The notes under the pieces: generated by a model | Database searches by the model: none | Told to the model about the DNA's origin: nothing | The model's input: the letters and a program-made list of their open reading frames with translations, nothing else | DNA from: a virus | Direction: 5' to 3' (one strand) | IMG/VR virus record: IMGVR_UViG_3300030450_002177 | Location: 1 to 60,463 of that record | DNA length: 60,463 bases | Shown: positions 20,140-45,655 of the stretch, piece by piece | Position numbering within the stretch: the first letter of the stretch is position 1 | Layout of the letters: the number at the start of each line of letters is the position of its first letter | Position numbers and translations under genes: made by a program

Positions 20140-21231
20140 ATGAAAGACTACCAAAGACAAAGACTGTATAACTGGGAGAACGCAGAACCTTGGATGGTAA
20201 AGAAAAGCGATCTTACAGAATCAGAGGTGCTTTACATTGTTAAAGAGTTAGACAAAATATTTAGAAAAAATTGGGAAATTAAAGAAACCAAAGTCCAGTT
20301 TTCCAACGGCAGAGGAATGAGCTGGGCAAACAAGTCTAAGATGAAATTAAAAAGAGATTGGGCATTGACTTGGGGTGTGGTCTTGCACGAATATGCACAC
20401 GTTATAACTGACGACAAACACGGACCTGAGTTTGTTGCAACCTTTTGTGGCTTAATCAATCGTTACCACCCAGACAAACCTTGCTTAAAAGAAATGGCAA
20501 AAACTCTAGGTGAATATGGATTGGACTTTAAATCGCTTAAAACTTTAGAAGATAGAGTGGCAATATCCAAACAACCTGACATCGACATATCTAAAGCGCC
20601 GATAGTAAAATCAAAATCAAGAGCTTTAACTCCAGAACAAAAAAGAAATAATAAGTTTAGAGCCAAGACTAAAGAATTATTAAAAGCTTGGGAAAGAAAA
20701 AGATGGGTATTAGGTGTTGATAGTGACCTTCACAAATTTGAATTTGATATTGAAAGAGTATATGACCCTCATTGGGGATTAGAGCTTTATGTCAGAAAAA
20801 CGGGTTGGATATATGATGACAAAATTACAGAGGGATTTGAATGGGAGTTGGAAGATACTTACGATAATTGGAAAGACGCTTATTACTGGTTGGCAAGCAA
20901 TGTTGTTGAAGTGTGGGAACTCTTCTTTACCAGCCCACCCAACGTGATGGGTGAAGACAAACCAACAGAAAGAAAAAGAGTAAAAAAATCTGGTCAAAGC
21001 CAAGAAGCTAAAGACAAAAAAGTTTATTACAACAGAGCCAGAAGGAGATTGGTCAAACATGGCTTTGAAATAATCTACGAAGGTGCGCACAAGAACTACA
21101 GGTCGGTTACGTTTAAAAACAACGAAACTCTGTTTGTGCAAGAAGCACAAGACAGTGCACCACTTAACATAGATTGGAAGAAAGTTTGCACAACCCTAGA
21201 AAATCTAGGCTATAAGGATGCAATTAGATGA
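20140..21231 (+). CDS. HExxH metallopeptidase-like protein, 363 aa
   Basis: VLHEYAHVITDDKHGPEFVATF at about residues 84-105 is a zinc-peptidase signature: HExxH plus a third His in HGPEF, as in SprT-like and related phage peptidases. The C-terminal two thirds are basic and Trp-rich, with two further segments (KLLKAWERKR and KRVKKSGQSQ regions) that may bind DNA. ATG behind GGAAGG and copy-D promoter. Substrate unknown; cleavage of a host or DNA-bound protein is plausible. Confidence 0.65.
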   Translation: MKDYQRQRLYNWENAEPWMVKKSDLTESEVLYIVKELDKIFRKNWEIKETKVQFSNGRGMSWANKSKMKLKRDWALTWGVVLHEYAHVITDDKHGPEFVATFCGLINRYHPDKPCLKEMAKTLGEYGLDFKSLKTLEDRVAISKQPDIDISKAPIVKSKSRALTPEQKRNNKFRAKTKELLKAWERKRWVLGVDSDLHKFEFDIERVYDPHWGLELYVRKTGWIYDDKITEGFEWELEDTYDNWKDAYYWLASNVVEVWELFFTSPPNVMGEDKPTERKRVKKSGQSQEAKDKKVYYNRARRRLVKHGFEIIYEGAHKNYRSVTFKNNETLFVQEAQDSAPLNIDWKKVCTTLENLGYKDAIR

Positions 21232-21248
21232 TGTTTCACGTGAAACAT
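21231..21248. promoter_or_regulatory. parS: parS-type ParB-binding palindrome, site 1
   Basis: ATGTTTCACGTGAAACAT, a perfect 18-bp palindrome whose central 16 bp equal the bacterial chromosomal parS consensus TGTTTCACGTGAAACA. It begins at the stop codon of the peptidase gene, about 40 bp before the recombinase start. An identical copy lies at 45638. No ParB is recognised in the window. Confidence 0.85.
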
Positions 21249-21288
21249 TTGCAAAATATTATAAATTTTTATACCATAAGGAGCAAAT

Positions 21289-22092
21289 ATGATTACACCC
21301 AATAAACAAATAAATAACATCTACGGTTATGTTCGAGTGTCTACGACAGAACAAGCCATTAATGGTATTTCAATCGACACGCAAAAAGATTTGATTAACG
21401 AATTTTGCATGACCAAGTTTAATCGCCCAGTTGACGAGTTTTTCGTTGATGCTGGCGTGTCTGGAACCATACCTATTAATGAGCGTGAAGAATCAAGAAG
21501 ATTGACAGACACCATAGACGAACACGACATTGTTATATCGACACGCTTAGACAGATTATCAAGATCGTCTGGCGATCTTTTAAAGACCATACCGATCTTT
21601 GAAGAGACTGGTGTTATCTACTATCTGTGTGAGCAATTTGGCGATATGCCAATTTCTTATCCAAAGAAAAAGAATAAAGCCAGCTTGCAGAGCAAGTTTG
21701 ACATGAACGAGATGGTCAACAAGATTATGGTTATGGTCTTATCGGCAGTGGCTGAAATAGAACACGGCTCTACTGTTGATAAACTAAAAGAAGGTAAATT
21801 GGCTTGGGCACCTAAAGGCTATTCGATAGGTGGCACAGCTCCTTTTGGTTACGATAAGGAAGAAGAAAAGATCAAAACAGGCAAAAGAGTTAAGCGCAGA
21901 ATGAAGTTGGTAGAGAATGAAGAAGAGCAAAAGGTCTTACAGTTTATCTATAAATTGAGGAAAAAGGGCTTAGGCGCAAGAAGAATATCCAAACAGATAG
22001 TGGCTCATTTTCCAGAATACGACATCTTTCCTTACTGGAAAGTACGCAACATACTAGCCAGAAAAGCACAAGGCTTGCATAACGCTAGTTAA
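21289..22092 (+). CDS. Serine site-specific recombinase, 267 aa
   Basis: Resolvase/invertase N-terminal domain: YGYVRVSTTEQ with nucleophile S18, and STRLDRLSRS with Arg86, Arg89 and Arg92. It is followed by a short recombinase domain (GGTAPFGYDKEEEK near 201-214) and a C-terminal KGLGARRIS helix. It is much shorter than phiC31-type integrases (usually 450-700 aa), so integrase, dimer resolvase or invertase are all possible. It follows AAGGAG. parS site 1 lies in its leader. Confidence 0.8.
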   Translation: MITPNKQINNIYGYVRVSTTEQAINGISIDTQKDLINEFCMTKFNRPVDEFFVDAGVSGTIPINEREESRRLTDTIDEHDIVISTRLDRLSRSSGDLLKTIPIFEETGVIYYLCEQFGDMPISYPKKKNKASLQSKFDMNEMVNKIMVMVLSAVAEIEHGSTVDKLKEGKLAWAPKGYSIGGTAPFGYDKEEEKIKTGKRVKRRMKLVENEEEQKVLQFIYKLRKKGLGARRISKQIVAHFPEYDIFPYWKVRNILARKAQGLHNAS

Positions 22093-22107
22093 TCCTAAAA
22101 TTTTAGT

Positions 22108-22119
22108 TATAATGAAATT
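22108..22119 (+). promoter_or_regulatory. Leaderless -10 box for the RelA/SpoT-like gene
   Basis: TATAAT at 22108-22113 followed by 6 nt and ATG 22120, with no Shine-Dalgarno. No good -35 seen. Confidence 0.55.
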
Positions 22120-24030
22120 ATGGCTAAACTACCAACAGGTTATCCTATAACAACTGGTGCCTTTTTGCTTGGGGATCAAGGTTCTAGGGTTGAACCATAT
22201 TATGATTTTGTCAGAGACATAACTGGTGACAGGCGCTCAACAGATGATGAAGATATTTTTGCTCCAGATAGAGATTTATTGGATAAAGTTGTTGAATCAT
22301 ACGAAGAAAACATACCCCTGCCAGACAAAATATTAGCTGGATTCACAATACCGGGCATTGGTATGGATTTAGCAGCAGCTGGAAAGTACGGCAGAGAAGG
22401 CGTTAGAGATATAAAATCTGGATTACAAAGCTTAGGTAGTGGTTTTAGTATGCACAAAGCCCCTAGTCAATTAAAGTCTGGTGTGAAAAATTTAGGCATA
22501 GCCACACTAGCTGGCGTAGGAGCAATACCAGTTGTTGGCGATATAGTGAAGCGAGCAGGCACACCTCTAATAAAAGGCTTGCAAGAATCTTCCGAAATAG
22601 TACCAATATTATCAATAATCAAGAAGTCTGATAATGTAAACCCGAAAAGAGTAAAACAAGCAAAAGATTTATTAGAAGCCTCATCAAATAATTTTGTATA
22701 CAAAGGCGTAGAGCAACAAAGAAGACAGCCCATAGAGGTTTTAGATAATGGTGATGGCACTTTTACTCAACTGGGTGGCTCTTCTACATTACAAGCCTTA
22801 GAAGAATCTGGCGCAACCCATATTCCCATAAAGCGCTTTCCAACCCGAGAGGCTTATCTCGAAAATGAGCCTATCAGAAAAGCTGCAAAAGAAAATAAAA
22901 GAGCAGAAGATGCGAAAACACTACAACCTAAAGTAAACGATCCAACATTTGAAGGACCTGTAAGAGAATTTGGCTCTAAAATGGAAAAAGAGTTTGATAA
23001 GACTTTTAATTTACACCAAGAGGGTCTTAAAACTGTAGATGATTTGTTTGAAACGGCACAAAGAGCCAACTCTCAATTCCAGAAAGAAATAAAAGAAATT
23101 GCTGATGGCTTTAATTTAAAAAGCACCTCAGCCCCCGGCGAACCTATTACTGATCCTACCGTTTTCAAATTTCTTGACAAAATTGATGGTCTTGCTGTTG
23201 ACATAAGAACAGGTCATTATCCCGGCACCGTTAAGCTGCCCAGTAGCATCCTTAGAAAGTCTAAAGCTAAATACAACGGCGATCCTTCACAAATAACTGA
23301 TAGCATGAGAACCAGAATTATAGCTGAAACCCCTGAAGAAGCTGATGCACTAGCCAAAGCAATATCATCTAAATGGGCAGCTAAAGATTCAGGCAATCAA
23401 ATAAACATGTTTGGTTACATAGATCGCAAACTTAATATTCAATACATTGATGATGCTGGAAATAAGATAATAGCAGAAATAAGCATAGTGCCTAGAGCTA
23501 TGGATGATGCAGCTCAAAAAGCACATCCACTATATGAAGCTTACCGTGGACAAATAGCCCTTTATGGCACTTCTGATGTAGATTTATTCCCTTACGCAGC
23601 ACAACAAAGAGCAAAAGTATTGCTTGAGAGACAAAATCAAATTTTTGGCGAAGCTAAACAACATATTCATCCAAGCTGGCTAGGAGAAGACCTTGTTCAA
23701 AAATTTGCTTACGGAGGTGCTGTTTATGCCAATCGAGGCAGCTCAGGAAGTGTGTCACCTATGACACCAAACTTCTTTTCAAACTCTGATTTATCAATGT
23801 TAGCTCCATCAATGGTGATGTCTGCGTATTGTTCACCTGAAGCAACTCGCCAAGAGTCTTCATCTAAAGGCAAAAAGAAAGCTGCTGATACATTGGCTTC
23901 TTCGGAACCAGCTATGACTGCTGGCAAACTTTCCCAAGAAAAATATAAGATTTCTAATTCCATGTCAGACAGTATAACAAAAAGATTCGTAGATTCACCA
24001 ACTGAAGGGGGTCGCAAGGAAATTTTATGA
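22120..24030 (+). CDS. Large cargo-like protein with RelA/SpoT-like domain and FAYGGAV motif, 636 aa
   Basis: The N-terminal part contains GFTIPGIGMDLAAAG (about 67-81), like the hydrophobic segment of the 12413 product. At about 313-475 is a region whose motif order fits a RelA/SpoT nucleotidyltransferase fold: ILRKSKAKY, ITDSMRTRII (D and R), MFGYIDRKLNI (for GYxSIH), AEISIVPRAM (for EIQxRTxxM) and AHPLYEAYRG. FAYGGAV follows at about 529-535, then a Ser-rich tail. Possibly injected and acting on nucleotides or RNA. Fold assignment is by eye. Confidence 0.5.
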   Translation: MAKLPTGYPITTGAFLLGDQGSRVEPYYDFVRDITGDRRSTDDEDIFAPDRDLLDKVVESYEENIPLPDKILAGFTIPGIGMDLAAAGKYGREGVRDIKSGLQSLGSGFSMHKAPSQLKSGVKNLGIATLAGVGAIPVVGDIVKRAGTPLIKGLQESSEIVPILSIIKKSDNVNPKRVKQAKDLLEASSNNFVYKGVEQQRRQPIEVLDNGDGTFTQLGGSSTLQALEESGATHIPIKRFPTREAYLENEPIRKAAKENKRAEDAKTLQPKVNDPTFEGPVREFGSKMEKEFDKTFNLHQEGLKTVDDLFETAQRANSQFQKEIKEIADGFNLKSTSAPGEPITDPTVFKFLDKIDGLAVDIRTGHYPGTVKLPSSILRKSKAKYNGDPSQITDSMRTRIIAETPEEADALAKAISSKWAAKDSGNQINMFGYIDRKLNIQYIDDAGNKIIAEISIVPRAMDDAAQKAHPLYEAYRGQIALYGTSDVDLFPYAAQQRAKVLLERQNQIFGEAKQHIHPSWLGEDLVQKFAYGGAVYANRGSSGSVSPMTPNFFSNSDLSMLAPSMVMSAYCSPEATRQESSSKGKKKAADTLASSEPAMTAGKLSQEKYKISNSMSDSITKRFVDSPTEGGRKEIL

Positions 24031-24164
24031 CTACAAAAGAAGAAGTGGAATATTGTTTAGTTAAAATAGATTCTGTTTTAGCTTATGATTTTATTACCAC
24101 CCCAGTAAAAGAGTCTTTAACTGACATAAAAACACACTTAGAAAGTGTAAAAGCAAGCCTATAA
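24027..24164 (+). CDS. Small acidic helical protein, 45 aa
   Basis: ATGA overlap with the preceding stop. Helical, charged (MTTKEEVEYCLVKIDSVL). Could be a partner or inhibitor of the RelA/SpoT-like protein because of the coupling; no evidence beyond position. Confidence 0.45.
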   Translation: MTTKEEVEYCLVKIDSVLAYDFITTPVKESLTDIKTHLESVKASL

Positions 24165-24167
24165 AGC

Positions 24168-24869
24168 ATGTCTGTCGGATGGGGTAGGTCTACATGGGGT
24201 TCTGGTCCTTGGGGGGAACCAGCCTCTATTCCTGTAAATGTTAACGTAGCTGGTGTTGCAATCACCAGTGGTATTGGGTCACTAAGCGTTGTAGCTGGTG
24301 CAGTTGTTACTGTAACGGGTGTTGCTATAACATCAGGCTTAGGCGCTTTGAGTGTTGATGCTGAAGCCAATGTTACACCAGCCACTCAAGTAATAAATAG
24401 TGGATTGGGTGCTCCCAGTGTCGATGCAGAAGCTAATGTCAGCGTAACAGGCAGAGCGATAACATCTGGATTGGGCAGTGCCACAGTCGATGCAGAAGCT
24501 AATGTCAGTGTTACTGGACAAGCCATTACCAGTGGTTTGGGTACTGCTACTGTAGATGCAGAAGCTAATGTTAGTGTTACAGGAGTAGCAACTACATCTG
24601 GACTGGGTACTGTTACTGTTTATCACAATGTTATAGTTGAGGTTACAGGACAGGCAATAACCTCTTCCATAGGTGCAGTTTCAACTACTGCTGATGCCAA
24701 TGCAATCCTGACTGGAGTAGCCATTACATCAACAACAGGTTATGTGTTAGTATGGAGTTTAATAGACGAAACACAGACAGCTGGGTATGAAACTATAAAT
24801 GAATCGCAAACACCAAGTTATTCTGGTATTGATGAGTCACAAACAGCAGACTGGACAGAGGTTGCATAA
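24168..24869 (+). CDS. Repeat-built tail fibre protein, 233 aa
   Basis: Begins MSVGWGRSTWGSGPWGEP, the WGxxxWGxGxWG motif of marine phage fibre/virion proteins. Residues about 25-200 are eight 22-residue beta repeats of the form VSVTGxAITSGLGxxxVDAEAN. Ends with three NESQTxSY/DESQTADW-like segments. Probably a virion appendage near the S74 fibre. Confidence 0.65.
   Translation: MSVGWGRSTWGSGPWGEPASIPVNVNVAGVAITSGIGSLSVVAGAVVTVTGVAITSGLGALSVDAEANVTPATQVINSGLGAPSVDAEANVSVTGRAITSGLGSATVDAEANVSVTGQAITSGLGTATVDAEANVSVTGVATTSGLGTVTVYHNVIVEVTGQAITSSIGAVSTTADANAILTGVAITSTTGYVLVWSLIDETQTAGYETINESQTPSYSGIDESQTADWTEVA
24240..24767 (+). repeat. Eight tandem 66-bp (22-aa) fibre repeats
   Basis: Eight consecutive repeats without length change, core VTGxAITSGLG followed by VDAEAN. 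The central units are the most alike, the outer ones diverged. Confidence 0.7.
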
Positions 24870-24878
24870 TTGTGATTT

Positions 24879-24905
24879 CTGATATAATTTGAACAGTATT
24901 AGGAG
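24879..24905 (+). promoter_or_regulatory. Extended -10 promoter for the S74 fibre gene
   Basis: TGATATAAT (24880-24888), an extended -10, lies 25 nt before ATG 24914, with AGGAG at 24901-24905 as ribosome site. Confidence 0.5.
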
Positions 24906-24913: not shown

Positions 24914-27745
24914 ATGGCAAGTACATACGTTAATGATTTAAGACTCAACGAAATGGCGACAGGTGATGCGTCAGGAACTTGGGGTACGACCACAAACACA
25001 AACTTAGAATTAATAGCAGAAGCGTTTAGTTATGGCACAGAAGCTATAACAACCAACGCTGATACGCATACTACTACTATTGCAGACGGAGCAACTGATC
25101 CCGGTAGATCAATGTTTCTTAAATACACAGGTGCATTGGATTCTGCCTGTACTGTAACTATTGGACCAAACACAGTATCTAAACTATGGTTTATAGAAAA
25201 CGCTACTACAGGTTCGCAAAACTTAGTTATAAGTCAAGGCACAGGTGCAAATATAACAATACCTGCTGGCGATACTAAAATTATTTATTCTGATGGTGCT
25301 GGTTCTGGTGGTGCTATGGTAGATGCACTAGCTAGTATTTCTGCTGTAGATTTAAAAGTACAAGACGATTTGACAGTTACAGATGATGCTTCAATAGGTG
25401 GAGACTTAACACTTACAGGTAACGGTGATTTTAACGGAGACTTAGACGTAGATGGAACTACAGAAACAGACGCATTAACTATTAATGGCTCGGCAGTAAA
25501 CTACAAAGCGTTTGGTACTTCTTCAATTATGCTTGGCGATAATGCTACAGGAACTATTGATGCTGCTAATTATAATGTTGGATTAGGTGTTGATGTTTTT
25601 GCAGCTTTAACTTCTGGTGATGGGAACATAGCTATTGGTTTTGCAGCATTAGATGCTAACACCACAGCAAGTTATAACGTAGGTATAGGACATAATGCTC
25701 TTGGAGCAACCACAACTGGTCAGCAAAATATTGCAGTTGGAGCAAATTCACTTGATGCAAATACGACTGGTGGAGACAATGTCGCAGTAGGAACAGGTGC
25801 TTTAGGAGCAAATACCACAGCCTCAAATAACGCAGCAGTTGGACATTTGTCTTTAACAGCAAACACTACAGGTCATTCAAATACAGCAGTAGGTTCTTTA
25901 TCACTTGATGCTAATACTACTGGAATTAGAAATACTGCCGTTGGTTTTGAAGCTTTAAGTGCAAATACTGATGGCACACAAAACACAGGAGTTGGTAAAG
26001 GTGCTTTACTTGTAAATACCACAGGTATTGAAAATACAGGGGTTGGTTCAAGTGCTCTTGACGCTAACACCACTGGTTCATATAACACAGCAATGGGACA
26101 GGGTGCTTTAGATGCTAATACAACAGCAGATAGCAACACTGCTTTCGGACACGATGCTTTAAAAGCAAATACCACAGGAACTCTTAACGTGGCAGTTGGT
26201 AAAGATGCTTTGTTAGCAAATACAACAGCTAATTCAAACACGGCAGTTGGCAATATAGCACTTGCTGCAAACACTACAGGAGCAGCGAATACGGCAGTGG
26301 GAAGAAATGCTCTTGGTGCAAATACGACTGCTTCAAATAACGTGGCAGTTGGGCATGGTGCTTTGGAATCTAATACGACAGGTGCTTCAAACACAGGAAT
26401 TGGTTATCAAGCTTTAGATGCGAATACTACAGGTGGTGCCAATGTTGGTCTTGGTTATGGAGCTCTTGGAGCAAATACAACAGCTTCAAATAACGTTGCT
26501 GTGGGCGTAAATGCTATGGAGGCAAACACCACAGGCACACAAAACGTAGCCGTAGGTCAAGCAGCTTTAGACGAATCTAGCACAGCAAGTTATAACACAG
26601 CAGTTGGTTATAGAGCCATGTCTGCAACTACAACTGGACAAGAAAACGTTGCATTTGGAACAGACGCAATGTTAGCAAATACTACTGGTGCTAGAAACAC
26701 AGTTTTAGGTGGCTATGCTTTAAGCGTTAATACAACAGGAGGAAACAACGTAGCGATTGGTTATTCTGCTATGTTAGCAAACACTACAGCATCAGAAAAT
26801 GTTGGTATCGGTGTTTATTGTTTAGACGCTAACACTACTGGGGGAAATAATTGTGGAGTTGGATATAATGTTTTAGGTGCTAACACCACAGGTTCTCAGA
26901 ACACGGCTGTAGGACATACTGCATTAGATTCTAATACTACAGCATCCAATAATACAGCAATGGGATATGGTGCTTTAGGAGTAAACACTACAGGTTCTGA
27001 AAATGTAGCAGTTGGAAGAAATTGTCTTGATGCAAATACCACAGGGCAAGACAATACTGCTATTGGTAATTCAGCGTTAGGAGGCAACACCACAGCTTCA
27101 AACAACACAGCCGTTGGTTCTGCTGCTTTGTTATTATGTACTACAGGAGCAGGTAATACTGCTATAGGAATTAATGCAGGTGGGTCAGTAACTACAGGTG
27201 GTAATCATTTCTTTATTGGGCATGGGGCAGGTATGACTTCTGGACCGGGAGGTACGCCGGGTGGTGCTATAACAACAGGTAATAACGAGGGTGTGATTGG
27301 AAATGGTGATACAAGTAAAATTAATACGCAAGTATCTATAACAGTAGCATCTGATGAAAGAGATAAAACAGACTTTCAAGCTTTAACAGCAGGTTTAGAT
27401 TTTGTAAACGCATTGAAACCTTATACTTACTATTGGGATAAACGAGCCAAGTATGTTGACTGGGAAACTAATCCTGATACAGACCTAAATTCTGTAACCA
27501 ATGATGGAACGCACAAAGAAGACTGGATGGATTTAGGTTTTAAAGCACAAGATGTAGTTGCTTTAGAAGATTCAATAAATCATAAAATATCTAATAAAAC
27601 TAATTTAGTTACCAGTCTATCAGGTGATGGAAAACAATACGCTTTACAATACGAAAAGTTTGTACCAATTCTAGTTAAAGCTTTGCAAGAAGCTGACGAT
27701 AAAATAGATGCGTTGACTACTAGAGTCACGACATTAGAAGGATAA
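24914..27745 (+). CDS. Tail fibre with YadA-like 17-aa repeats and S74 chaperone domain, 943 aa
   Basis: N-terminal virion-binding region (NDLRLNEMATGDASGTWGTT), a beta region, then 31 exact-length 17-residue repeats (about 238-764; core NTAVGxxALxANTTGxx) like trimeric autotransporter head coils. At the C-terminus is a Peptidase_S74 intramolecular chaperone: SDERDKTD with the Ser-Asp catalytic pair, GLDFVNALKPYTYYW and a final coiled coil. Expected to trimerise, cleave itself and bind host receptor. Confidence 0.85.
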   Translation: MASTYVNDLRLNEMATGDASGTWGTTTNTNLELIAEAFSYGTEAITTNADTHTTTIADGATDPGRSMFLKYTGALDSACTVTIGPNTVSKLWFIENATTGSQNLVISQGTGANITIPAGDTKIIYSDGAGSGGAMVDALASISAVDLKVQDDLTVTDDASIGGDLTLTGNGDFNGDLDVDGTTETDALTINGSAVNYKAFGTSSIMLGDNATGTIDAANYNVGLGVDVFAALTSGDGNIAIGFAALDANTTASYNVGIGHNALGATTTGQQNIAVGANSLDANTTGGDNVAVGTGALGANTTASNNAAVGHLSLTANTTGHSNTAVGSLSLDANTTGIRNTAVGFEALSANTDGTQNTGVGKGALLVNTTGIENTGVGSSALDANTTGSYNTAMGQGALDANTTADSNTAFGHDALKANTTGTLNVAVGKDALLANTTANSNTAVGNIALAANTTGAANTAVGRNALGANTTASNNVAVGHGALESNTTGASNTGIGYQALDANTTGGANVGLGYGALGANTTASNNVAVGVNAMEANTTGTQNVAVGQAALDESSTASYNTAVGYRAMSATTTGQENVAFGTDAMLANTTGARNTVLGGYALSVNTTGGNNVAIGYSAMLANTTASENVGIGVYCLDANTTGGNNCGVGYNVLGANTTGSQNTAVGHTALDSNTTASNNTAMGYGALGVNTTGSENVAVGRNCLDANTTGQDNTAIGNSALGGNTTASNNTAVGSAALLLCTTGAGNTAIGINAGGSVTTGGNHFFIGHGAGMTSGPGGTPGGAITTGNNEGVIGNGDTSKINTQVSITVASDERDKTDFQALTAGLDFVNALKPYTYYWDKRAKYVDWETNPDTDLNSVTNDGTHKEDWMDLGFKAQDVVALEDSINHKISNKTNLVTSLSGDGKQYALQYEKFVPILVKALQEADDKIDALTTRVTTLEG
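25625..27205 (+). repeat. 31 tandem 51-bp (17-aa) repeats
   Basis: 31 units of exactly 17 codons, residues 238-764, with one degenerate unit just before (about 221-237). Protein consensus is strong while codons vary, suggesting old repeats held by selection rather than recent slippage. Confidence 0.85.
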
Positions 27746-27755: not shown

Positions 27756-28073
27756 ATGGCAGTAAGCAAAAAATTAGTAAAAACCATACCTTATGTCAAA
27801 TCCAGTAAAGTGGAAGAATGGCATTTGGATATGCAATACGAAAACGACAGCGAAGGCGATGCGACTTATTACAAAACTGTATTCAGGCACACAGCCGTAG
27901 CAGCCGATGGTGATTTTACCAAAGCAGCAAAAGGTTCGTTTAGTAACGCTGACTTAGTAGCGTTGTGTCCTGTATCGCATTGGGATGTAGTATTCGCTAG
28001 TCAGGTGGATTCAGTTATTACGAATCCAACTACTGAACCAGTACCTGACGAGTCATTTGCAGTACCTAGTTAA
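27756..28073 (+). CDS. Fibre-associated hypothetical protein, 105 aa
   Basis: ATG after AAGGAG, 10 bp behind the S74 fibre gene. Sequence with KVEEWHLDMQYENDSEGDATYYKTV and LCPVSHWDVVFASQ is of a type that follows fibres in marine phages; an assembly factor or small virion protein is possible. Confidence 0.55.
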   Translation: MAVSKKLVKTIPYVKSSKVEEWHLDMQYENDSEGDATYYKTVFRHTAVAADGDFTKAAKGSFSNADLVALCPVSHWDVVFASQVDSVITNPTTEPVPDESFAVPS

Positions 28074-28780
28074 TGGCTGAAGTAACAGTACATAATATGC
28101 CTAGTGTCTTTGTTATGGAGACACAGATGCCAGAGAGTATGGTGAATGACTTAAATGATTATCTTGACGAATACGTTGAAGATAAAAACAAGAAGTCATT
28201 AGCTGATACTTTAGTTGGGCAAATAGCACAAGGCGAACAATTATTAATGGATAACGCTGACCCAAGATTAAAAGAATACACAGACTTTGTTTGTGGATTA
28301 GGAGCAGACTATATTAATTTCTTTTCTCAAAATACTGGAGCAACGTTAAAAGCACCTAAAGCAGTAGCTGTAGATGAAACTTGGTCAGTACACAGTTACG
28401 AAGGAGACTATAATCCTATACACGATCACGGTACTAAAACCATAATGGGTATATCCACTACTGGCTGGACTAAAGTACCACAACAAATACTAGATCAACC
28501 TGTAGCTGGATCACCTAACTATTCTTTATACAATACGTCAGGTGATTGCGATGGTTATATAGCATTTCAATATGGGTTGAATCAATTAATGGACACAGAT
28601 AGATTGAGACCACCTCAATCTTTTGTTATGCAACCAGAGGTAGGGAAGTTGTTGGTTTTCCCTTCATGGTTGCAACACATGGTATATCCTTTTAAGGGAG
28701 AAGGTGAAAGAAGAACGGTTGCCTCTAACCTTAATTGTTGGGATGTGCCTCAAGAACCAACACAAGAAGAAGGAGAATAA
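28073..28780 (+). CDS. 2OG-Fe(II) oxygenase, 2OG-FeII_Oxy_5 type (copy 2), 235 aa
   Basis: Paralogue of the 3074-3796 product: shared ETWSVHSYEGDYNPIHDH, PEVGKLLVFPSWLQH and GEGERRTVASNLNCWDVP, so His/Asp ligands, distal His and the 2OG Arg are all kept. Starts in a TAATG overlap with the fibre-associated gene, pointing to action on fibre or tail proteins, in contrast to copy 1 among replication genes. Substrate unproven. Confidence 0.85.
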   Translation: MAEVTVHNMPSVFVMETQMPESMVNDLNDYLDEYVEDKNKKSLADTLVGQIAQGEQLLMDNADPRLKEYTDFVCGLGADYINFFSQNTGATLKAPKAVAVDETWSVHSYEGDYNPIHDHGTKTIMGISTTGWTKVPQQILDQPVAGSPNYSLYNTSGDCDGYIAFQYGLNQLMDTDRLRPPQSFVMQPEVGKLLVFPSWLQHMVYPFKGEGERRTVASNLNCWDVPQEPTQEEGE

Positions 28781-35177: not shown

Positions 35178-36665
35178 ATGAAAAACGTATCTATAAAAGA
35201 TTTTGATATTTTGTCTGAGCAAGACAAAACAGAGGCTATAGCCCTATTAAACCGTTATGAGCAAATAGATAAGCAGTCTAATTGTCATGTAGATTTCTTG
35301 TCTTTTGTTAAACACATGTGGGGCGACACTTTTATTGAAGGTCGTCATCATAAGATTATCGCTGATAAATTCAATCGTATAGCACAAGGCAAACTAAAAA
35401 GACTAATTGTTTGCTTACCCCCTAGACACTCTAAATCAGAATTTGCTTCAACCTTCTTTCCAGCTTGGATGATGGGCTTAAACGGTTCTTTAAAGATAAT
35501 ACAATGTACACACACAGCCGAACTAGCTGTCAGGTTCGGTAGAAAAGTAAGAAACCTTATTGATAGTGAAGATTTTAAGTTTATTTTTCCTAATTTAAAA
35601 TTACAAGCAGACAATAAAAGTGCTGGTAGGTGGACAACAAACGAAGAAGGTGAGTCTTTCTACGCTGGTGTAGGTGGAGCTATTACGGGTCGTGGTGCTG
35701 ATTTATTGATTATTGACGATCCTCATTCTGAGCAGGACGCTCTTTCTCCTAAAGCATTAGAATCAGCTTATGAGTGGTATACATCAGGTCCTAGGCAGAG
35801 GTTACAGCCGGGAGGCACCATAGTCATAGTAATGACTCGTTGGAGCACGAAAGATTTGGTTGGTAAAGTATTGAAGAAGCAGGGTGAAGAGAACGCAGAC
35901 CAATGGGAAGTGATTGAGTTTCCAGCAATTATGCCAGAAACAGACAAACCATTGTGGGGCGAGTTTTGGAAAAAAGAAGAATTACTTAGCGTTAAAGCAT
36001 CACTTCCAGTAGCTAAATGGAACTCACAATGGATGCAAGACCCTACAGCTGAAGAAGGTTCAATCGTAAAAAGAGAATGGTGGAGAAAGTGGGCTGGAGA
36101 AAATGTGCCAGAATATGATTATGTTATACAAAGTTATGATACTGCGTTTTCTAAGAAAGATACTGCTGACTATTCTGCAATAACAACTTGGGCTATTTTT
36201 ATAGATGAAGAGAACGACATGCCCAATATAATCCTATTAGACGCAAAAAGGGTTAGGGTGGACTTTCCTGAGCTAAAACGATTAGCTTTTGATGAGTACA
36301 AGTATTGGGAGCCAGACTGTGTATTAATAGAAGCTAAAGCATCAGGAACGCCTCTTACACAGGAATTAAGGCGTATGGGAATACCAGTAACTGCTTATTC
36401 CCCAAGCAGAGGACAAGACAAAATTGCCAGAATGAATAGTGTTGCGCCAATCTTTGAATCTGGAATGGTTTGGATGCCAGAAGAAACTTTTGCAGAAGAA
36501 GTGGTTGAAGAGATGGCTAGTTTCCCTTATGGTGATAACGATGACTATTGCGATAGTGCCACGATGGCTTTAATGCGTTTTAGACAGGGTGGTTTTTTGT
36601 CATTAAAAGAAGACTATCAAGATGAGGTAAAATTACTAAAAAGAGACAGGACGGTTTATTATTAA
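35178..36665 (+). CDS. terL: Terminase large subunit, 495 aa
   Basis: ATPase: Walker A-like CLPPRHSKSE (about 79-88) and Walker B LLIIDDPHSEQDA (176-188). Nuclease: SYDTAFSKKDTADYSAITTW with the first catalytic Asp, LIEAKASGTPL, and DDYCDSATMAL near the end. Packaging motor for the portal encoded downstream. The small subunit is about 25.5 kb away. Confidence 0.95.
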   Translation: MKNVSIKDFDILSEQDKTEAIALLNRYEQIDKQSNCHVDFLSFVKHMWGDTFIEGRHHKIIADKFNRIAQGKLKRLIVCLPPRHSKSEFASTFFPAWMMGLNGSLKIIQCTHTAELAVRFGRKVRNLIDSEDFKFIFPNLKLQADNKSAGRWTTNEEGESFYAGVGGAITGRGADLLIIDDPHSEQDALSPKALESAYEWYTSGPRQRLQPGGTIVIVMTRWSTKDLVGKVLKKQGEENADQWEVIEFPAIMPETDKPLWGEFWKKEELLSVKASLPVAKWNSQWMQDPTAEEGSIVKREWWRKWAGENVPEYDYVIQSYDTAFSKKDTADYSAITTWAIFIDEENDMPNIILLDAKRVRVDFPELKRLAFDEYKYWEPDCVLIEAKASGTPLTQELRRMGIPVTAYSPSRGQDKIARMNSVAPIFESGMVWMPEETFAEEVVEEMASFPYGDNDDYCDSATMALMRFRQGGFLSLKEDYQDEVKLLKRDRTVYY

Positions 36666-36870: not shown

Positions 36871-39357
36871 ATGGCAATAGAAAGAGTATTAGGAACAGAA
36901 AACGATCCAGATATAGTAGATTTAGACACATCTGTTGAGGTTATACCAGAACAATCAAGACAAGATCAAATAAGAGAAGCTGCTAATATTTTGGTGCAAG
37001 ATGAACAAGTCTTCACTGAAGAAGAATTAATGCAAGAACCAGAACAAGTGCAAGATTCTTTTTTTGATAACTTAGCTGAATTTGTAGAAGAAGACGAATT
37101 AAACAAACTGGCTTCTAACTTGATAGATTCTATAAAAAACGACTTAGAATCGAGAAGCGAGTGGGAAAAGACCTATAAAGACGGTCTCCAATATCTAGGC
37201 ATGAAGTTTGATGAAAGTCGTTCACAGCCGTTTCAAGGCTCTAGTGGTGTTATTCACCCTATTTTGGCAGAAGCCGTTACCCAGTTCCAAGGTCAGGCAT
37301 ATAAGGAGCTACTACCAACTAAAGGACCTGTAAAAACTCAGATAATCGGTCAAAGAACGGCAGAAACAGAATCGCAAGCAGAAAGGGTGCAAGAGTTTAT
37401 GAACTATTACATATTGAATGTAATGGAAGATTATGACCCAGAACTAGACCAAATGCTTTTCTATTTACCTTTAGCTGGTTCAGCCTTTAAGAAAATTTAC
37501 TTTGATTTTGTGTTAAATAGAGCTGTATCTAAATTTATACCACCAGAAGATTTAATCGTACCTTACGAAGCTCCTGACATATCTACAGCTGAAAGAGTGA
37601 CACACGTTATTAGCATGTCTAGGAATGAGGTTAAAAAACAACAATTATCTGGTTTTTACGCAAACGTAGAAATTCCAGAAGAATCTTATGAAGATCGTGA
37701 CGATGTAACTGAAGAAATAGACGAAATTCAAGGAATATCACCGAGTTATACAGAAGATCGCAACCGTACTATATATGAAGTACACACAATACTTGATTTA
37801 CAAGGCTATGAAGACTTGGATGCAGAGGGCGTTCCAACTGGCTTGAAGCTACCATACATAGTAACCATAGATAAACAATCAAGCACAGTTTTATCCATTA
37901 GGCGTAATTTTAACCCTCAAGACGTTTCTAAAAATAAGATTAACTATTTTGTGCAATATAAGTTTTTACCGGGATTAGGTTTTTACGGCTTAGGCTTGTC
38001 GCACATGATAGGGGGTCTTTCTAAGGCAACAACCTCTATTTTAAGACAGCTTATTGATGCTGGTACTTTAGCTAATTTACCAGCTGGCTTTAAAGCTAGA
38101 GGTATGCGTATAAGAGATGAAGCCGATCCATTGCAACCCGGTGAATTTAGAGATATAGATACTACAGGTGGGTCATTGAGAGAAAACTTAATACCATTAC
38201 CAATTAAAGAGCCAAGCAACGTGTTAATGCAACTTTTAGCCATATTGGTTGACTCAGGGAAGCGTTTTGCAGCCATATCAGACATGAATGTTGGTGATAT
38301 GAACCAAGCGATGCCAGTAGGAACTACAGTGGCGTTATTAGAGCGTGGCACTAAAGTTATGAGCGCTATACATAAGCGTCTACATTATGCACAAAGGTTA
38401 GAATTTAATCTTTTAGCTAAAGTGTTTGCAGACTACCTACCTCCTACTTACGACTATGAAACTGGTTCAGGTCCTAGAGATATTAAGCTGAGTGATTTTG
38501 ATGAGCGTGTCGATATTATTCCTGTATCTGACCCTAACATATTTTCTCAGAGCCAAAGAATAACTATGGCACAAGAGCTTCTACAAATGGTTCAATCTAA
38601 CCCACAGGTGCATGGACCAACTGGTATATATGAAGCCTACAGCAGAATGTACAGTGCATTAGGGGTTGATAATATTGAGTCTTTATTACAACCTCCACCA
38701 GACATGACCCCAAAACCTGTAGATGCAGGCTTAGAAAATAGTGGTTTATTGTTAGGACAACCAGCTCAAGCATTTGAACAACAGAACCATGAAGCACACA
38801 TAGAAGCGCATCAAAGTTTATTTTTAACGAAGGTTGTAAAAGAGAATCCACAAATACAATCTTTAATAATAAGTCATGTTATGCAACATATTCAGTTTTT
38901 TGCTAGTCAGTTGGCACAAGAGCAAATGCCTCCTGAATTGCAACAAAGAATAGCTGCTTTACAAGCACAAATGCAACAGGTTACTCCAGAACAGGCGCAA
39001 CAAATACAGCAAGAGCTACAGATGATGATGGATCAAATGAGCTCACCTATATTGGCTGAACTAACCAATCAATTCTTATCTTCAATAGGACAATCAGATG
39101 AGACTGATCCTTTGGTTGCAATAAGACAACAAGAATTAGCCTTAAAAGACAAAGAACTTGATATAGATGCAGAACAGTTTGAATTAAAACAACAAGCTAT
39201 GTCTGACAATGCTATGCTTGATGCACAATTACAACAAAGACGTTTAGATGTACAAAAGACCATAGCTGATGATAAACTTCAAGTAGCTTTAGACAGATTA
39301 CAACAACAGGCTGAATTTAAGCTGATGGAGTTAGAATTAAAAATGAGAGGAAATTGA
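36871..39357 (+). CDS. Portal protein, P22-type, 828 aa
   Basis: Length and layout fit P22-like portals: acidic N-terminus, SRSQPFQGSSGVIHPILAEAV, ATSILRQLIDAGTLANLPAGF, and a long Gln-rich helical C-terminus (about 680-828) like the P22 barrel. Forms the dodecameric vertex for DNA entry and tail binding. Confidence 0.9.
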   Translation: MAIERVLGTENDPDIVDLDTSVEVIPEQSRQDQIREAANILVQDEQVFTEEELMQEPEQVQDSFFDNLAEFVEEDELNKLASNLIDSIKNDLESRSEWEKTYKDGLQYLGMKFDESRSQPFQGSSGVIHPILAEAVTQFQGQAYKELLPTKGPVKTQIIGQRTAETESQAERVQEFMNYYILNVMEDYDPELDQMLFYLPLAGSAFKKIYFDFVLNRAVSKFIPPEDLIVPYEAPDISTAERVTHVISMSRNEVKKQQLSGFYANVEIPEESYEDRDDVTEEIDEIQGISPSYTEDRNRTIYEVHTILDLQGYEDLDAEGVPTGLKLPYIVTIDKQSSTVLSIRRNFNPQDVSKNKINYFVQYKFLPGLGFYGLGLSHMIGGLSKATTSILRQLIDAGTLANLPAGFKARGMRIRDEADPLQPGEFRDIDTTGGSLRENLIPLPIKEPSNVLMQLLAILVDSGKRFAAISDMNVGDMNQAMPVGTTVALLERGTKVMSAIHKRLHYAQRLEFNLLAKVFADYLPPTYDYETGSGPRDIKLSDFDERVDIIPVSDPNIFSQSQRITMAQELLQMVQSNPQVHGPTGIYEAYSRMYSALGVDNIESLLQPPPDMTPKPVDAGLENSGLLLGQPAQAFEQQNHEAHIEAHQSLFLTKVVKENPQIQSLIISHVMQHIQFFASQLAQEQMPPELQQRIAALQAQMQQVTPEQAQQIQQELQMMMDQMSSPILAELTNQFLSSIGQSDETDPLVAIRQQELALKDKELDIDAEQFELKQQAMSDNAMLDAQLQQRRLDVQKTIADDKLQVALDRLQQQAEFKLMELELKMRGN

Positions 39358-41430: not shown

Positions 41431-41903
41431 TGGCAGATAAAGATATAGATACAGCTAGACACACTCGTGATTCCGAGACACACGATAAAGAAGCTCGTAG
41501 AACACCATGGAGACCAGTTAAGAAGCTGGAGACACCTGAACCACCTGAAGGTTATGTCTACAGATGGATTAGGGAGTCTTTCTTAGGTCAAGAAGATGCA
41601 AATAACGTAAGTTATAGACTTCGTGAAGGTTGGGAGCTTGTACAAGGTTCTGAACTTCCAGATGGTTGGCAACTTCCTACTATAGAAAAAGGCAGATTAG
41701 CTGGTGTTGTACATAATGAGGGACTTATTTTAGCAAAAATGCCCATAGAGACTGTTGAAGAGCGTAGAAGGTATTATGAGGACACAACTCGTAAAGCTAA
41801 CGAAGCGTTAGATAACACAATGTTTAACGATAGCGCACAAGACAACCGATATGTTAAGTATGATTCTAAAAGAGAAACTCAAGTTACTTTTGGAAAAAAG
41901 TAA
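41430..41903 (+). CDS. Head-module hypothetical protein, 157 aa
   Basis: Contains ETPEPPEGYVYRWIRESFLGQEDANNVSYRLREGWE, a pattern common in small marine phage structural proteins. TAATG overlap with the scaffold-like gene. Probably virion-associated. Confidence 0.6.
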   Translation: MADKDIDTARHTRDSETHDKEARRTPWRPVKKLETPEPPEGYVYRWIRESFLGQEDANNVSYRLREGWELVQGSELPDGWQLPTIEKGRLAGVVHNEGLILAKMPIETVEERRRYYEDTTRKANEALDNTMFNDSAQDNRYVKYDSKRETQVTFGKK

Positions 41904-41926
41904 TTTAATTAAACAGGAAAACAAAA

Positions 41927-42511
41927 ATGGCTAATAAAGATTCAGCATTTGGCTTAAAACCTGTTCGTATGATGAGTGGAGCACCCTATTCTGGAGGACA
42001 ATCCAGATATAGAATAGCTAGTGGGGCAACTACACCTATATACCAAGGCGACTTAGTTACACAACTAACAGCTGGCGTACTAGGTAGACATGCTGCTACT
42101 GGAACTGTTCCTATCGTGGGTGTGTTTAATGGCGTAAGCTATACTAACTCTGAAGGCGAACAAGTTTTTAAAAACTATTATCCGGGCAGTATTACTGCTT
42201 CTGATATTATCGCAAATGTAATAGATGATCCTAACGTAGTCTTTGAAGTACAAGCAGACGACACTTTTCCAGTCGCCGATCTGTTTGGAAACTTTGACAT
42301 TGTTGATGGTTCACCTGTTGGCGATACGAGCTCTGGACAATCTAATACTGAGCTAGATGTAACTACTGGCGCTACGACAGCTACGTTACCACTCAAAGCA
42401 TTAGATATATCACAGGACCCCGATAACTCAGACGTAGCTTCAGCTAACACCAATGTCATGTGTGTGATTCAAAACCACATTATGGGACAAAAGGGTGCTG
42501 GACTAGCATAA
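41927..42511 (+). CDS. Head structural protein (decoration/cement-like), 194 aa
   Basis: MANKDSAFGLKPVRMMSGAPYSGG and GVFNGVSYTNSEGEQVF are typical of a marine phage capsid accessory protein just before the major capsid gene. Beta-rich. Likely decorates or stabilises capsomers. Confidence 0.65.
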   Translation: MANKDSAFGLKPVRMMSGAPYSGGQSRYRIASGATTPIYQGDLVTQLTAGVLGRHAATGTVPIVGVFNGVSYTNSEGEQVFKNYYPGSITASDIIANVIDDPNVVFEVQADDTFPVADLFGNFDIVDGSPVGDTSSGQSNTELDVTTGATTATLPLKALDISQDPDNSDVASANTNVMCVIQNHIMGQKGAGLA

Positions 42512-42522
42512 GGTAGGTAAAC

Positions 42523-43440
42523 ATGGCAATTTCAAGAGCACAATTAGCTGCCGAATTAGAACCGGGATTAAACAGTTTATTTGGAATGGAGTACGATCAG
42601 TACGACAAAGAATATTCTGAAATCTTCTCAATCGAAGACTCATCAAAAGCCTTTGAAGAAGAAGTATTAATCGTTGGGTTTGGTTCTGCACCAACTAAGT
42701 CTGAAGGTCAAGGTGTTGTTTTTGACAACGCTACTGAAAGTTACACTGCAAGATATACGCATGACACGATTGCGTTGGCTTTTGCACTAACTGAAGAAGC
42801 AGTTGAAGATAACCTTTATGATTCTTTAGGAAAGAGATATACAAAAGCACTAGCACGTTCTATGGCTAACACCAAAGAAGTGAAAGGAGCTAATGTACTT
42901 AATAACGCTTTCTCTACCAGTTTCACTGGTGGCGATGGAAAACCTTTAATCGCAACAGACCACCCTCTTTCTGGTGGTGGTACAGCTGCGAATAGAGCTA
43001 CTTCTATGGCTGACCTTAATGAAACTTCATTAGAGGATGCGCTTATTGACATATCTACATTTACAGACGATAGAGGTCTGACAATATCCGTTAACGCATC
43101 GAAACTTGTGGTTCCACCACAACTTACTTTTGTTGCTGACAGAATATTGAACAGCACTCAGCGTTCAGGAACGGCAGATAACGACATTAACGCTATCAAA
43201 AACACAGGGGTGTTACCCGGTGGCTATACTGTCAATCATTATCTGACTGACCCAGACGCTTTCTTCTTACTGACATCTGTTACAGATCAAGGTGAGGGAC
43301 TGAAAATGTTTCAAAGAACAGGTATGGAAACAAACATGGAACCTGATTTCTCTACTGGTAACATACGTTACAAGGCAAGAGAAAGATACAGCTTCGGTTT
43401 TTCAAACTGGAGAGGTGTTTACGGTTCTCAGGGAGCTTAA
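42523..43440 (+). CDS. Major capsid protein, 305 aa
   Basis: HK97-fold head protein of Mu gpT-like type: KAFEEEVLIVGFGSAPTKSE, YTHDTIALAFALTEEAVEDN, KPLIATDHPLSGGGTAAN, SKLVVPPQLTFVADRIL and a C-terminal RYSFGFSNWRGVYGSQGA. Ends the first head block, before a terminator. Confidence 0.85.
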   Translation: MAISRAQLAAELEPGLNSLFGMEYDQYDKEYSEIFSIEDSSKAFEEEVLIVGFGSAPTKSEGQGVVFDNATESYTARYTHDTIALAFALTEEAVEDNLYDSLGKRYTKALARSMANTKEVKGANVLNNAFSTSFTGGDGKPLIATDHPLSGGGTAANRATSMADLNETSLEDALIDISTFTDDRGLTISVNASKLVVPPQLTFVADRILNSTQRSGTADNDINAIKNTGVLPGGYTVNHYLTDPDAFFLLTSVTDQGEGLKMFQRTGMETNMEPDFSTGNIRYKARERYSFGFSNWRGVYGSQGA

Positions 43441-43486
43441 TGAACGAATAGAAATACCGTTTATAACTCAAGTATTTCAAAGAAAG

Positions 43487-43511
43487 GGCAACTTCGGTTG
43501 CCTTTTTTTTT
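43487..43511 (+). terminator. Rho-independent terminator after the major capsid gene
   Basis: GGCAAC-TTCG-GTTGCC (43487-43502) with a stable UUCG loop, followed by nine T. Confidence 0.85.
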
Positions 43512-43545
43512 GGTCTAAATTTATTGAAATAATATGTATAAAAAG

Positions 43546-43612
43546 TTGTACATTTTTATAAATATATGTATAATGGACATGTGGAGATGATAAATAACAA
43601 TAAAAAGGAGAA
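43546..43612 (+). promoter_or_regulatory. Early promoter, repeated-family copy B
   Basis: TTGTAC (43546-43551), 17 nt, TATAAT (43569-43574), then ATGTGGAGATGATAAATAAC and AAAAAGGAG. Near-identical over about 85 bp to copy A (19509-19438, opposite strand). Confidence 0.85.
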
Positions 43613-43615
43613 AAA

Positions 43616-43795
43616 ATGAAAAGAAAATATAGAGAGTACAAAGGCATAAAAATTGAGTGTCAAATGACACCAAAGGGTTTTGACAGTGACTACTATAATG
43701 TTATGTATGTTTACAGATTGAATGGTGGTTTAAACGTCAGCCATAAACTTAAAGATGCCAAAGCTAGAATTGACAGATTTGTGGAGAAGGCGTAA
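43616..43795 (+). CDS. Hypothetical early-type protein, 59 aa
   Basis: ATG after AAAAGGAG, first gene behind promoter copy B. Contains YKGIKIECQMTPKGFDSD and LKDAKARIDRFVE, an alpha/beta pattern like small phage early proteins. Unknown. Confidence 0.55.
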   Translation: MKRKYREYKGIKIECQMTPKGFDSDYYNVMYVYRLNGGLNVSHKLKDAKARIDRFVEKA

Positions 43796-43917
43796 TGAGT
43801 AAATTTGCAATTACTTTCCGTCCTTGCGAGGTATGTGAGAATCCGTATGTTGAATACGTTAATGGTGAAACTTGTGGTTGTGAAGTTTGCCATGAAGGTT
43901 ACATGAATCAAGAATAG
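43795..43917 (+). CDS. Zinc-binding-like small protein, 40 aa
   Basis: TAATG overlap. CEVCENPYVEYVNGETCGCEVC gives two cysteine pairs about 15 residues apart, a likely zinc knuckle. Confidence 0.5.
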   Translation: MSKFAITFRPCEVCENPYVEYVNGETCGCEVCHEGYMNQE

Positions 43918-43926
43918 GAGAAAAAA

Positions 43927-44262
43927 GTGAAAAATTTACTTAAAGAAATCAAGGAAGCTAAGAAAGAAGCTAAAAACAAAACTCTTAAATACGCTAAATG
44001 TGCTTTTGGTCAAGGCTGGGAAATTATACAAAGAGATAATTCGGGCAGAGAAGAAGAGCTAGCGTCTTTTGAAAGTGGCGAGCCTATTACTCTTAAAGCA
44101 ATTAAGGAAGTAACAGATTCCAATAGAACCTTAACTGCTAAAGAAATTTGGATTGAAGGGAGATATGTTGGAGCTAAAAACCTTTATGATTATATAAATA
44201 ATGAAGATTATATAGACAACGTAAATTATTGGGAAGTTGATCTTCTAAAGGAGGTAGAGTAA
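43927..44262 (+). CDS. Hypothetical protein, 111 aa
   Basis: GTG after AGGAGAAAAA. Basic helical N-terminus (LKEIKEAKKEAKNK) and an acidic C-terminus. Unknown; part of the inserted early-type cassette. Confidence 0.55.
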   Translation: MKNLLKEIKEAKKEAKNKTLKYAKCAFGQGWEIIQRDNSGREEELASFESGEPITLKAIKEVTDSNRTLTAKEIWIEGRYVGAKNLYDYINNEDYIDNVNYWEVDLLKEVE

Positions 44263-45089
44263 TGATAACTGGCTTGGGCAAAAGATATTACTACATAGGT
44301 TCTGGTTATGAGAACAAAATGTATACCCTTAGAGATTACGTTTCCTATACTAATGGCGAAACTTCTAGTGAAAGCGATAGGCACATGTTAAACCTTTCTA
44401 CTGATTATGAAGAGGCTTACAAAAAAGCCAAAATCTATGCCGAAAGGGATGATGTAACATTGCGTGCTTCTAAGGTTGATAATTTTGCACCTCTTGATCC
44501 AATCATTAGAAAAAGAAAAAGAAGCGCTGAGGAAATAGAAAAGGCTAAAATTGACTTGCAAATAGCAGTTGATGATTTTTTGCAAGCCAACCCGATCTTA
44601 GCACAGAACTTTGAAACTTATGGTGATGCAGATATTGAGGTGAAAAGAGAAATAGGTTTTGCTTTCTATGACATTAAAGACAAGCTTTATAAGTATGGCA
44701 ATCTGTCTGAAGCACAAGTAGATTTTTGTCTTAAAATGGTAGACAGCTATATTACCAGAAAAGAAAATGCAAAAGTATGGGCAGAAGAAAAAGCTGATGC
44801 AGAGCCAGTACCTGTGACTGAAGAAAGAATACAATTTACTGGAGAGGTTATAAAAACTGCATGGAAAGATTACACTTTGCCTAACGGTATGCCAACAAGC
44901 TCACAAAAATGCACTGTTAAAGATGACAGAGGTTTTGTGGTTTGGGGTGGTAATGTAGGTGAAAAGGGTGACAGGGTTACTTTCATGGCTAGAGTAACCG
45001 TTTCAGACAATGACCCTAAATTTGGCTTTTACAAAAGACCTACCAAAATACAACAAATTGAAAAAGCTGGAGTAGAAAACAATGGCTAA
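44262..45089 (+). CDS. OB-fold-like hypothetical protein, 275 aa
   Basis: TAATG overlap with AAAGGAGG upstream. Helical middle (NLSEAQVDFCLKMVDSY) and a C-terminal beta segment RIQFTGEVIKTAWKD, SSQKCTVKDDRGFVVWGG, GDRVTFMARVTVS that looks like an OB-type or plasmid-type small-molecule/DNA-binding domain. Function not recognised. Confidence 0.55.
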   Translation: MITGLGKRYYYIGSGYENKMYTLRDYVSYTNGETSSESDRHMLNLSTDYEEAYKKAKIYAERDDVTLRASKVDNFAPLDPIIRKRKRSAEEIEKAKIDLQIAVDDFLQANPILAQNFETYGDADIEVKREIGFAFYDIKDKLYKYGNLSEAQVDFCLKMVDSYITRKENAKVWAEEKADAEPVPVTEERIQFTGEVIKTAWKDYTLPNGMPTSSQKCTVKDDRGFVVWGGNVGEKGDRVTFMARVTVSDNDPKFGFYKRPTKIQQIEKAGVENNG

Positions 45090-45633
45090 CAAACCAAAAA
45101 AAATAGAGAAGGAGAAAGAAATGCAAAATTTTATTTTTGAATCAAGAAGTGATACTTTTTTTGAATCAGATTACAACGATTATGGAATACGTTGTGAAAT
45201 CACTGTTCTAGGTGAAGAAAAATATAGGGTTGAACTTATAGGTCTTGACTGCGAAGTGATTAAGTGTTTTACCTGTAAAACAACTGACGAATGTAAAACT
45301 GAAGCTTATGAAGAAGCTAAATTCCTGAAGGAAATGAATGAAGTGACTTGTGGTAATCTTACAGTAGATGATTACGAATTACATCATTCATGGTGTTATG
45401 CCCATACTTCAGACATAGAGCGACTTAAAGAGATTTGTTCTAAGTATGATGACAATAAACATAAATGCGAATTAGAAAGTGCCTATGAATATGAAGATGA
45501 AAACAAAATATTAGATAAAAAAATTCGTGAGGATAAGTGGCAAGCTGATTTTGAAAAAATGCTGTCTTCTAAAAACATAAAAGAAATGAAGGTAAATGTA
45601 CTCAAAATGATTCAAGACCACAAAAAAAATTAA
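45082..45633 (+). CDS. Hypothetical acidic protein, 183 aa
   Basis: Overlaps the previous gene by 8 bp. Several Cys (IKCFTCKTTDECKTEA) and acidic helices. Last larger gene before parS site 2. Start may instead be the ATG at 45121 behind GGAGAAAG. Confidence 0.5.
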   Translation: MANKPKKIEKEKEMQNFIFESRSDTFFESDYNDYGIRCEITVLGEEKYRVELIGLDCEVIKCFTCKTTDECKTEAYEEAKFLKEMNEVTCGNLTVDDYELHHSWCYAHTSDIERLKEICSKYDDNKHKCELESAYEYEDENKILDKKIREDKWQADFEKMLSSKNIKEMKVNVLKMIQDHKKN

Positions 45634-45637
45634 TTAT

Positions 45638-45655
45638 ATGTTTCACGTGAAACAT
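45638..45655. promoter_or_regulatory. parS: parS-type ParB-binding palindrome, site 2
   Basis: ATGTTTCACGTGAAACAT, identical to the 18-bp site at 21231. It begins 5 bp after a stop codon and lies about 32 bp before a small gene, the same setting as site 1; the 20 bp after both sites contain AAAATAT. Confidence 0.85.

Follow-up and report, generated by a model that had tools for sequence, protein, structure and literature searches.

The virus record IMGVR_UViG_3300030450_002177 of IMG/VR, analysed here over its whole length of 60,463 bp (the window), carries two copies of an 18-bp perfect palindrome, ATGTTTCACGTGAAACAT, one at 21231-21248 (site 1) and the other at 45638-45655 (site 2). The inner 16 bp of both copies are exactly the consensus TGTTNCACGTGNAACA of the chromosomal-type parS, the site at which the bacterial partition protein ParB is loaded. 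A search of the record with up to three mismatches to this 16-bp core found nothing beyond the two sites. A first-order Markov model of the record predicts 2.3e-5 copies of the 16-mer, so that the probability of meeting two of them is ~3e-10. An earlier note on this DNA had described two identical parS palindromes that are not to be expected by chance, each directly after a stop codon and shortly before a downstream gene, and all of this description holds.

Neither palindrome has an assigned strand; the genes that adjoin them and are described below lie on the plus strand. Site 1 falls in the expanded interval between the small terminase subunit gene terS (9104-9613, plus strand) and the large subunit gene terL. 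Its first A is part of the TGA stop of the gene at 20140-21231, whose product has an HExxH metallohydrolase-like N-terminal part and a C-terminal stretch of ~80-110 residues that is common to the open reading frames (ORFs) upstream of the recombinase in related phages. From the other end of site 1 there are 40 bp to the ATG of a small serine recombinase (PF00239, 267 aa; 21289-22092). Site 2, between the capsid gene and the tail genes, begins 4 bp 3' of the stop of a gene without an assigned function (45082-45633) and is followed after 31 bp by a 47-codon ORF (45687-45830) with an AG-rich leader and, downstream, a terminator-like hairpin at 45852-45887. The 11 bp 3' of each palindrome are alike at the two sites (AAAATAT), and both sites precede leaders resembling ribosome-binding sites and overlap a possible TTTCAC-N17-TATTAT/TATACA promoter, a weak resemblance for which one variant was scored.

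The earlier note saw no parA or parB gene in the phage and proposed hidden Markov model searches for them; these have given nothing significant. The ParB_N profile (PF02195), which found matches in 11 of 14 control genomes, had none anywhere in the record, not even at E=10. Seven SAR11 ParB and three SAR11 ParA sequences, compared unfiltered with all reading frames of the record, produced no significant match; phmmer with the three ParA sequences reached a best E of 2.4, and a Pfam scan of about 40 of the phage products found no ParA. Both cis-encoded components of a self-contained ParABS system, a ParB-family protein and a ParA ATPase, thus went undetected in these searches. A multidomain protein just beyond the recombinase (22120-24030) was considered as a cryptic ParB and rejected. 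It has a RelA/SpoT-like region at residues 371-472 (below the cut-off) and, around residues 200-245, a low-confidence model (predicted local distance difference test score, pLDDT, 59) that weakly resembles a divergent ParB/sulfiredoxin fold; its top Foldseek matches are Noc, ParB and Spo0J, at non-significant E values of 0.16-0.5, and a PDB sequence search with the product found nothing. We do not take this protein for the ligand of the sites because no DNA-binding domain or helix-turn-helix was recognised in it and because it is missing from most site-bearing relatives.

The parS core in the presumed host and across viruses

The phage has homologues of the portal protein (SU10-type; 36871-39357), TerL (35178-36665) and the major capsid protein (42523-43440), all on the plus strand and in the same order as in the HTVC023P-type podoviruses, among which the portal places it; a GroES-like gene agrees with this assignment. 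The portal is 44-53% identical to those of the Pelagibacter phages HTVC023P and HTVC027P and of 023Pt_psg01, and 43-44% identical to those of Roseobacter phages CRP-901/902. Two portal relatives were found within metagenome-assembled genomes (MAGs), one on a Candidatus Pelagibacter contig and the other in a gammaproteobacterial MAG. Given the HTVC023P-type kinship and the Candidatus Pelagibacter contig, a SAR11-like host is likely.

The chromosomes of SAR11 bacteria contain the same core. Exactly one GTTYCACGTGRAAC is present in each of 53 of the 78 SAR11-family genomes, and the remaining genomes mostly have a form with one mismatch, such as ATTTCACGTGAAAC; the full TGTTTCACGTGAAACA occurs in one SAR11 genome (L332). 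In all 12 exact cases inspected the core, GTTTCACGTGAAAC, lies in rsmG directly beside parA, with parB next. The SAR11 ParB is itself canonical, with the motif IGKSRS.IAN.LRLL and a match to the Caulobacter ParB at E 2e-60. Since the core found in SAR11 rsmG beside parA is the same, the phage sites are, as judged by sequence identity, two copies of the parS core of SAR11 chromosomes, versus the usual one of the presumed host.

Such sites are widespread among viruses. The exact 18-mer was found in at least 120 IMG/VR stretches, as compared with 0, 0 and 19 for three palindromes of the same composition, and the 18-mer, in full or over 17 bp, is present in 198 INPHARED records, as compared with 0 for a control palindrome; these virus collections are redundant and include fragments, so the counts do not equal independent events. 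The 19 stretches with the control palindrome ATTTCGTCATGACGAAAT (L360-L378) are a separate matter: several are in virus records of ~39 kb, and this palindrome is possibly another conserved operator. The named hosts in INPHARED include Microbacterium, Listeria, Gordonia, Arthrobacter, Bacillus, Lactobacillus, Ruegeria, Butyrivibrio and Enterococcus, and the exact site is carried by the Bacillus subtilis phages B103, where it lies within gene 15, and vB_BsuP-Goe1, and by Ruegeria phage DSS3P8, where it is intergenic. No enterobacterial phage is among the named site-bearing matches listed; enterobacteria are not known to have a chromosomal ParABS. A search of the open-access literature found no paper that brings together "pelagiphage" and "parS" or that deals with chromosomal parS in phages.

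Among the matches listed from IMG/VR, 47 of 120 loci have homologues of the packaging or head genes of this phage (TerL identities being as low as 26-34%), a SAR11-type ParA is present in none of the 120, and a ParB in one. Similarly, of 50 whole parS-bearing virus records only one has a match to the ParB family TIGR00180 above the cut-off, with weak matches in 7 more. The sites avoid long open frames (38% versus 76% for random positions) and often lie just upstream of terL, 15-123 bp away in 20 of the 35 loci having this gene, these 20 falling into 12 groups by flanking sequence. They are also often clustered, with up to 24 in one 117-kb record. That record (L035, G752; 116,662 bp) and another with 12 exact parS-type sites (L102, G784; 169,219 bp) have arrays of TGTTTCACGTGGAACA and no ParB match at E<=0.001. 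In a further stretch (L089), positions 641-682 upstream of terL contain two parS sites of differing sequence, TGTTTCACGTGAAACA and TGTTCCACGTGGAACA, separated by 9 bp.

Among the phages that have the recombinase, a parS-like palindrome was found in 47 of 80 fetched loci and, at the level of whole records, in 25 of 50 (reversed-pattern control, 0). At up to two mismatches there are 33 parS matches in the relatives versus 0-1 for each of 20 shuffled palindromes, none of which had an exact match. The nearest recombinase relative (L203) retains site 1 exactly, including the 40 bp to the recombinase, and has a second site within coding sequence. In other relatives the palindrome is inside a minus-strand gene starting MEKYF, where it encodes MFHMKHK (VFHVEQ in L272 and L274), or in another coding sequence (L245 and L253), or just 3' of a TTGCAC-N17-TATAAT promoter that precedes differing genes (L265-L277). 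The palindrome is therefore kept across different genes and frames and despite changed amino acids (MFHMKH to VFHVEQ), and this points to selection acting at the level of the DNA.

In many of the recombinase phages CACGTG is replaced by CATGTG/CACATG. The exact TGTTYCACATGRAACA is present in 25 of 289 alphaproteobacterial genomes and is adjoined by mnmG, rsmG, parA and/or parB in 13 of the 20 loci fetched; on this evidence the CACATG variants of the phages are also chromosomal parS variants of other Alphaproteobacteria, a comparison that matches repertoires rather than phage-host pairs. That a phage-encoded regulator should track the parS variants of hosts is not to be expected. One alphaproteobacterial genome of ~0.6 Mb (L341, G471) has six TGTTCCACATGGAACA sites within 23 kb, at 537-560 kb.

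What the sites may do

We consider it probable that both palindromes serve as parS sites of the chromosomal type, working in cis: the ParB of the host would be loaded there onto the phage genome. Their identity with the SAR11 parS, the enrichment of the site among phages, the host-like variants, the lack of a phage ParA or ParB and the freely varying context all support this reading. The earlier note had suggested that the phage recruits host ParB; a parS read by host ParB is well supported by the sequence comparisons, and its purpose may be partition, titration or transcription.

It is well established that ParB is loaded as a clamp at parS in a cytidine triphosphate (CTP)-dependent manner, that it slides from there, and that it stimulates ParA and recruits SMC. 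From this biochemistry we infer that host ParB-CTP clamps would load at each phage site and slide into the flanking phage DNA. Loading would put the phage DNA on the ParA/SMC machinery of the host, so that the genome might be positioned or partitioned, and the rising number of phage copies would contend for ParB with a host parS that is usually present once. Both effects could occur together: a phage genome that is plasmid-like or replicates slowly could be partitioned while host segregation is disturbed, as with Salmonella genomic island 1 (SGI1) and a plasmid ParB. The SAR11-like host, the binding of ParB, the loading of clamps and the benefit to the phage are all steps that we infer.

Several observations weigh against this reading. 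Genes for lysogeny or plasmid replication were not identified in the phage; among the products scanned, which took in part of the small ORFs, no repressor or Rep was recognised, a VapE/Toprim primase being all that was seen. With the recombinase, moreover, essentially absent from sequenced hosts, a benefit through partition is unsupported. The weak promoter-like arrangement that overlaps both sites fits a transcriptional operator as well. The assignment to a SAR11 host rests on the HTVC023P-type kinship and one MAG contig. Finally, the site is patchy among portal relatives. None was found at up to two mismatches in 80 portal-centred contigs (73-98% portal identity), although the regions in question lie outside most of these contigs. 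HTVC023P, 023Pt_psg01 and seven portal relatives of greater length also have no such site, so that the site is not essential to the HTVC023P-type group; nor does site 2 have a demonstrated counterpart in relatives. The earlier note had looked to conservation in relatives as a check, and the outcome is thus mixed, favourable for site 1 in L203 and for the palindrome in the 47 recombinase loci and unfavourable in the portal-centred contigs.

A possible, if rather doubtful, alternative is that host ParB does bind and that its main role is regulation: it would repress, activate or roadblock phage promoters and tie the expression of the late genes or of the recombinase to the host cell cycle. This overlaps with ParB loading in cis, since host ParB is the ligand in both. 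The proximity of so many sites to terL in 12 different flanking contexts would fit regulation, as would the leaders and promoter-like sequences at sites 1 and 2 and the TTGCAC-N17-TATAAT just ahead of the site in L265 and L266. There are precedents in the CtrA-binding sites of alphaproteobacterial phages (PMC9437464) and in Pseudomonas aeruginosa, whose ParB is reported to affect promoters near parS3 and parS4 (PMC5521831). However, many of the sites fall within coding sequence or lie well away from promoters, and arrays of 5-24 sites suit loading better than they suit an operator. A shared promoter architecture was also looked for and discarded: it is seen at the two sites of this phage, but the terL-proximal sites do not share its spacing.

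It is improbable that the sites are operators at which a regulator of the phage's own binds, with a recognition sequence that coincides with parS by accident. Both are promoter-proximal and the phage does encode several small uncharacterised proteins, but the exact site recurs in phages that differ greatly in their genes and hosts, its variants match the chromosomal variants of hosts, and a ParB/KorB-type protein is found nowhere in the record and rarely in other site-bearing records. Still less probable is a role in recombination, with the palindrome as the attP or resolution site at which the neighbouring serine recombinase acts and its likeness to the host parS either a coincidence or a sign that the host parS is the target. 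Site 1 does lie 40 bp upstream of the recombinase here and in L203, and the sites of relatives are within ~5 kb upstream. We nevertheless reject this idea because the distance (40 bp to 2.5 kb) and the context, coding sequence included, vary, and because most site-bearing phages are without this recombinase; site 2, in addition, is 24 kb away from it. No prophage at parS and no plasmid state were found either, a search with the recombinase giving no integrated prophage in genome contigs and one weak 33% match in 397 SAR11-order genomes. That the palindromes are a neutral remnant of captured host DNA, present by chance or common descent, would agree with their patchiness among close relatives but is the least probable reading, given ~2e-5 copies expected per genome, flanks unlike rsmG-parA both here and at the terL-proximal sites, and control palindromes near zero.

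We conclude that the feature is real and widespread, and that it is best read as a host-type parS borrowed by phages. Its distribution suggests that phages commonly recruit the chromosome-segregation protein of their hosts. We are evenly divided on the broader proposition that carriage of the host centromere is a general phage strategy, in which unrelated phages of ParB-bearing hosts, including a common ocean group, would evolve or capture the host-specific parS variant, load ParB, position, condense or segregate their own DNA and starve the host centromere.

Other features of the record

A leader/gene-start region is duplicated in inverted orientation, and the two copies, at 19200-19538 and 43517-43809, have diverged (88 nt at 86% and 38 nt at 82%); they tie the early block to the accessory block whose end is at site 2. 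A TET-associated glycosyltransferase (7323-8192) and three 2-oxoglutarate-Fe(II) oxygenase-type genes plus one OGFOD2-like gene below the cut-off (at 1577-2290, 3074-3796, 11858-12400 and 28073-28780) suggest modified DNA bases. The minus-strand gene at 16283-17311 has an integrase arm-type DNA-binding domain (PF13356), with no catalytic domain recognised alongside it, and at 24914-27745 there is a gene for a long tail-type protein, with numerous 51-nt repeats and, at the end, a peptidase S74 chaperone. For replication there is a VapE-like primase/helicase with a Toprim domain (4938-7091, plus strand); no DNA polymerase such as that of HTVC023P was recognised. A megablast comparison of 12 kb of the record with phages gave no match, and no terminal repeat longer than a 12-mer was found.

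Comparison with known systems

Lists of the functions that phages exploit in their hosts do not usually include chromosome segregation. If the phage parS loads host ParB, this would be a takeover, purely in cis, of a nearly universal bacterial machine; it would also explain the recurrent palindromes in many phage genomes and provide a sequence signature for host prediction, in which the parS variant is set against the host ParB. The exact sites in phages B103 and DSS3P8 make the idea testable in model hosts.

In its portal, terL, capsid, GroES module and genome size the phage resembles HTVC023P and HTVC027P, and HTVC027P has CGTTTCACGTGAAACA at 16412; it differs from them in that the VapE primase and the serine recombinase replace the DNA polymerase module, and HTVC023P is without the site. 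Like the phage-plasmids P1 and N15 it has a centromere on a phage genome, but these encode their own ParA and ParB, with their own, non-chromosomal parS. With the chromosomal ParABS (Spo0J-parS) it shares the identical 16-bp site, and the predicted host has a canonical ParB; here, however, the site is on a phage that is without parA, parB or the rsmG context, and its position is unrelated to a chromosomal origin. Phages of Alphaproteobacteria carry arrays of CtrA-binding sites, associated with lytic deferment, that have evolved several times (PMC9437464). These too are phage-borne binding sites for a DNA-binding protein of the host cell cycle, but CtrA is a transcription factor whereas ParB is a CTP-dependent clamp and segregation adaptor. 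A further close parallel is SGI1, a mobile element without parAB whose two parS mimics are bound by the ParB of IncC plasmids, with a proposed gain in self-stabilisation and in displacement of the other replicon (PMC10954446). The phage likewise is without parAB and carries the parS of another replicon in the cell, that of its presumed host, as in SGI1-type parS parasitism. SGI1 is an integrative element that mimics a plasmid parS, with a demonstrated function, whereas here a host-chromosome parS is found in phages and its function is putative. The known kind to which these sites belong is thus best read as parS parasitism, and what would be new is that phages borrow a host-type chromosomal parS.

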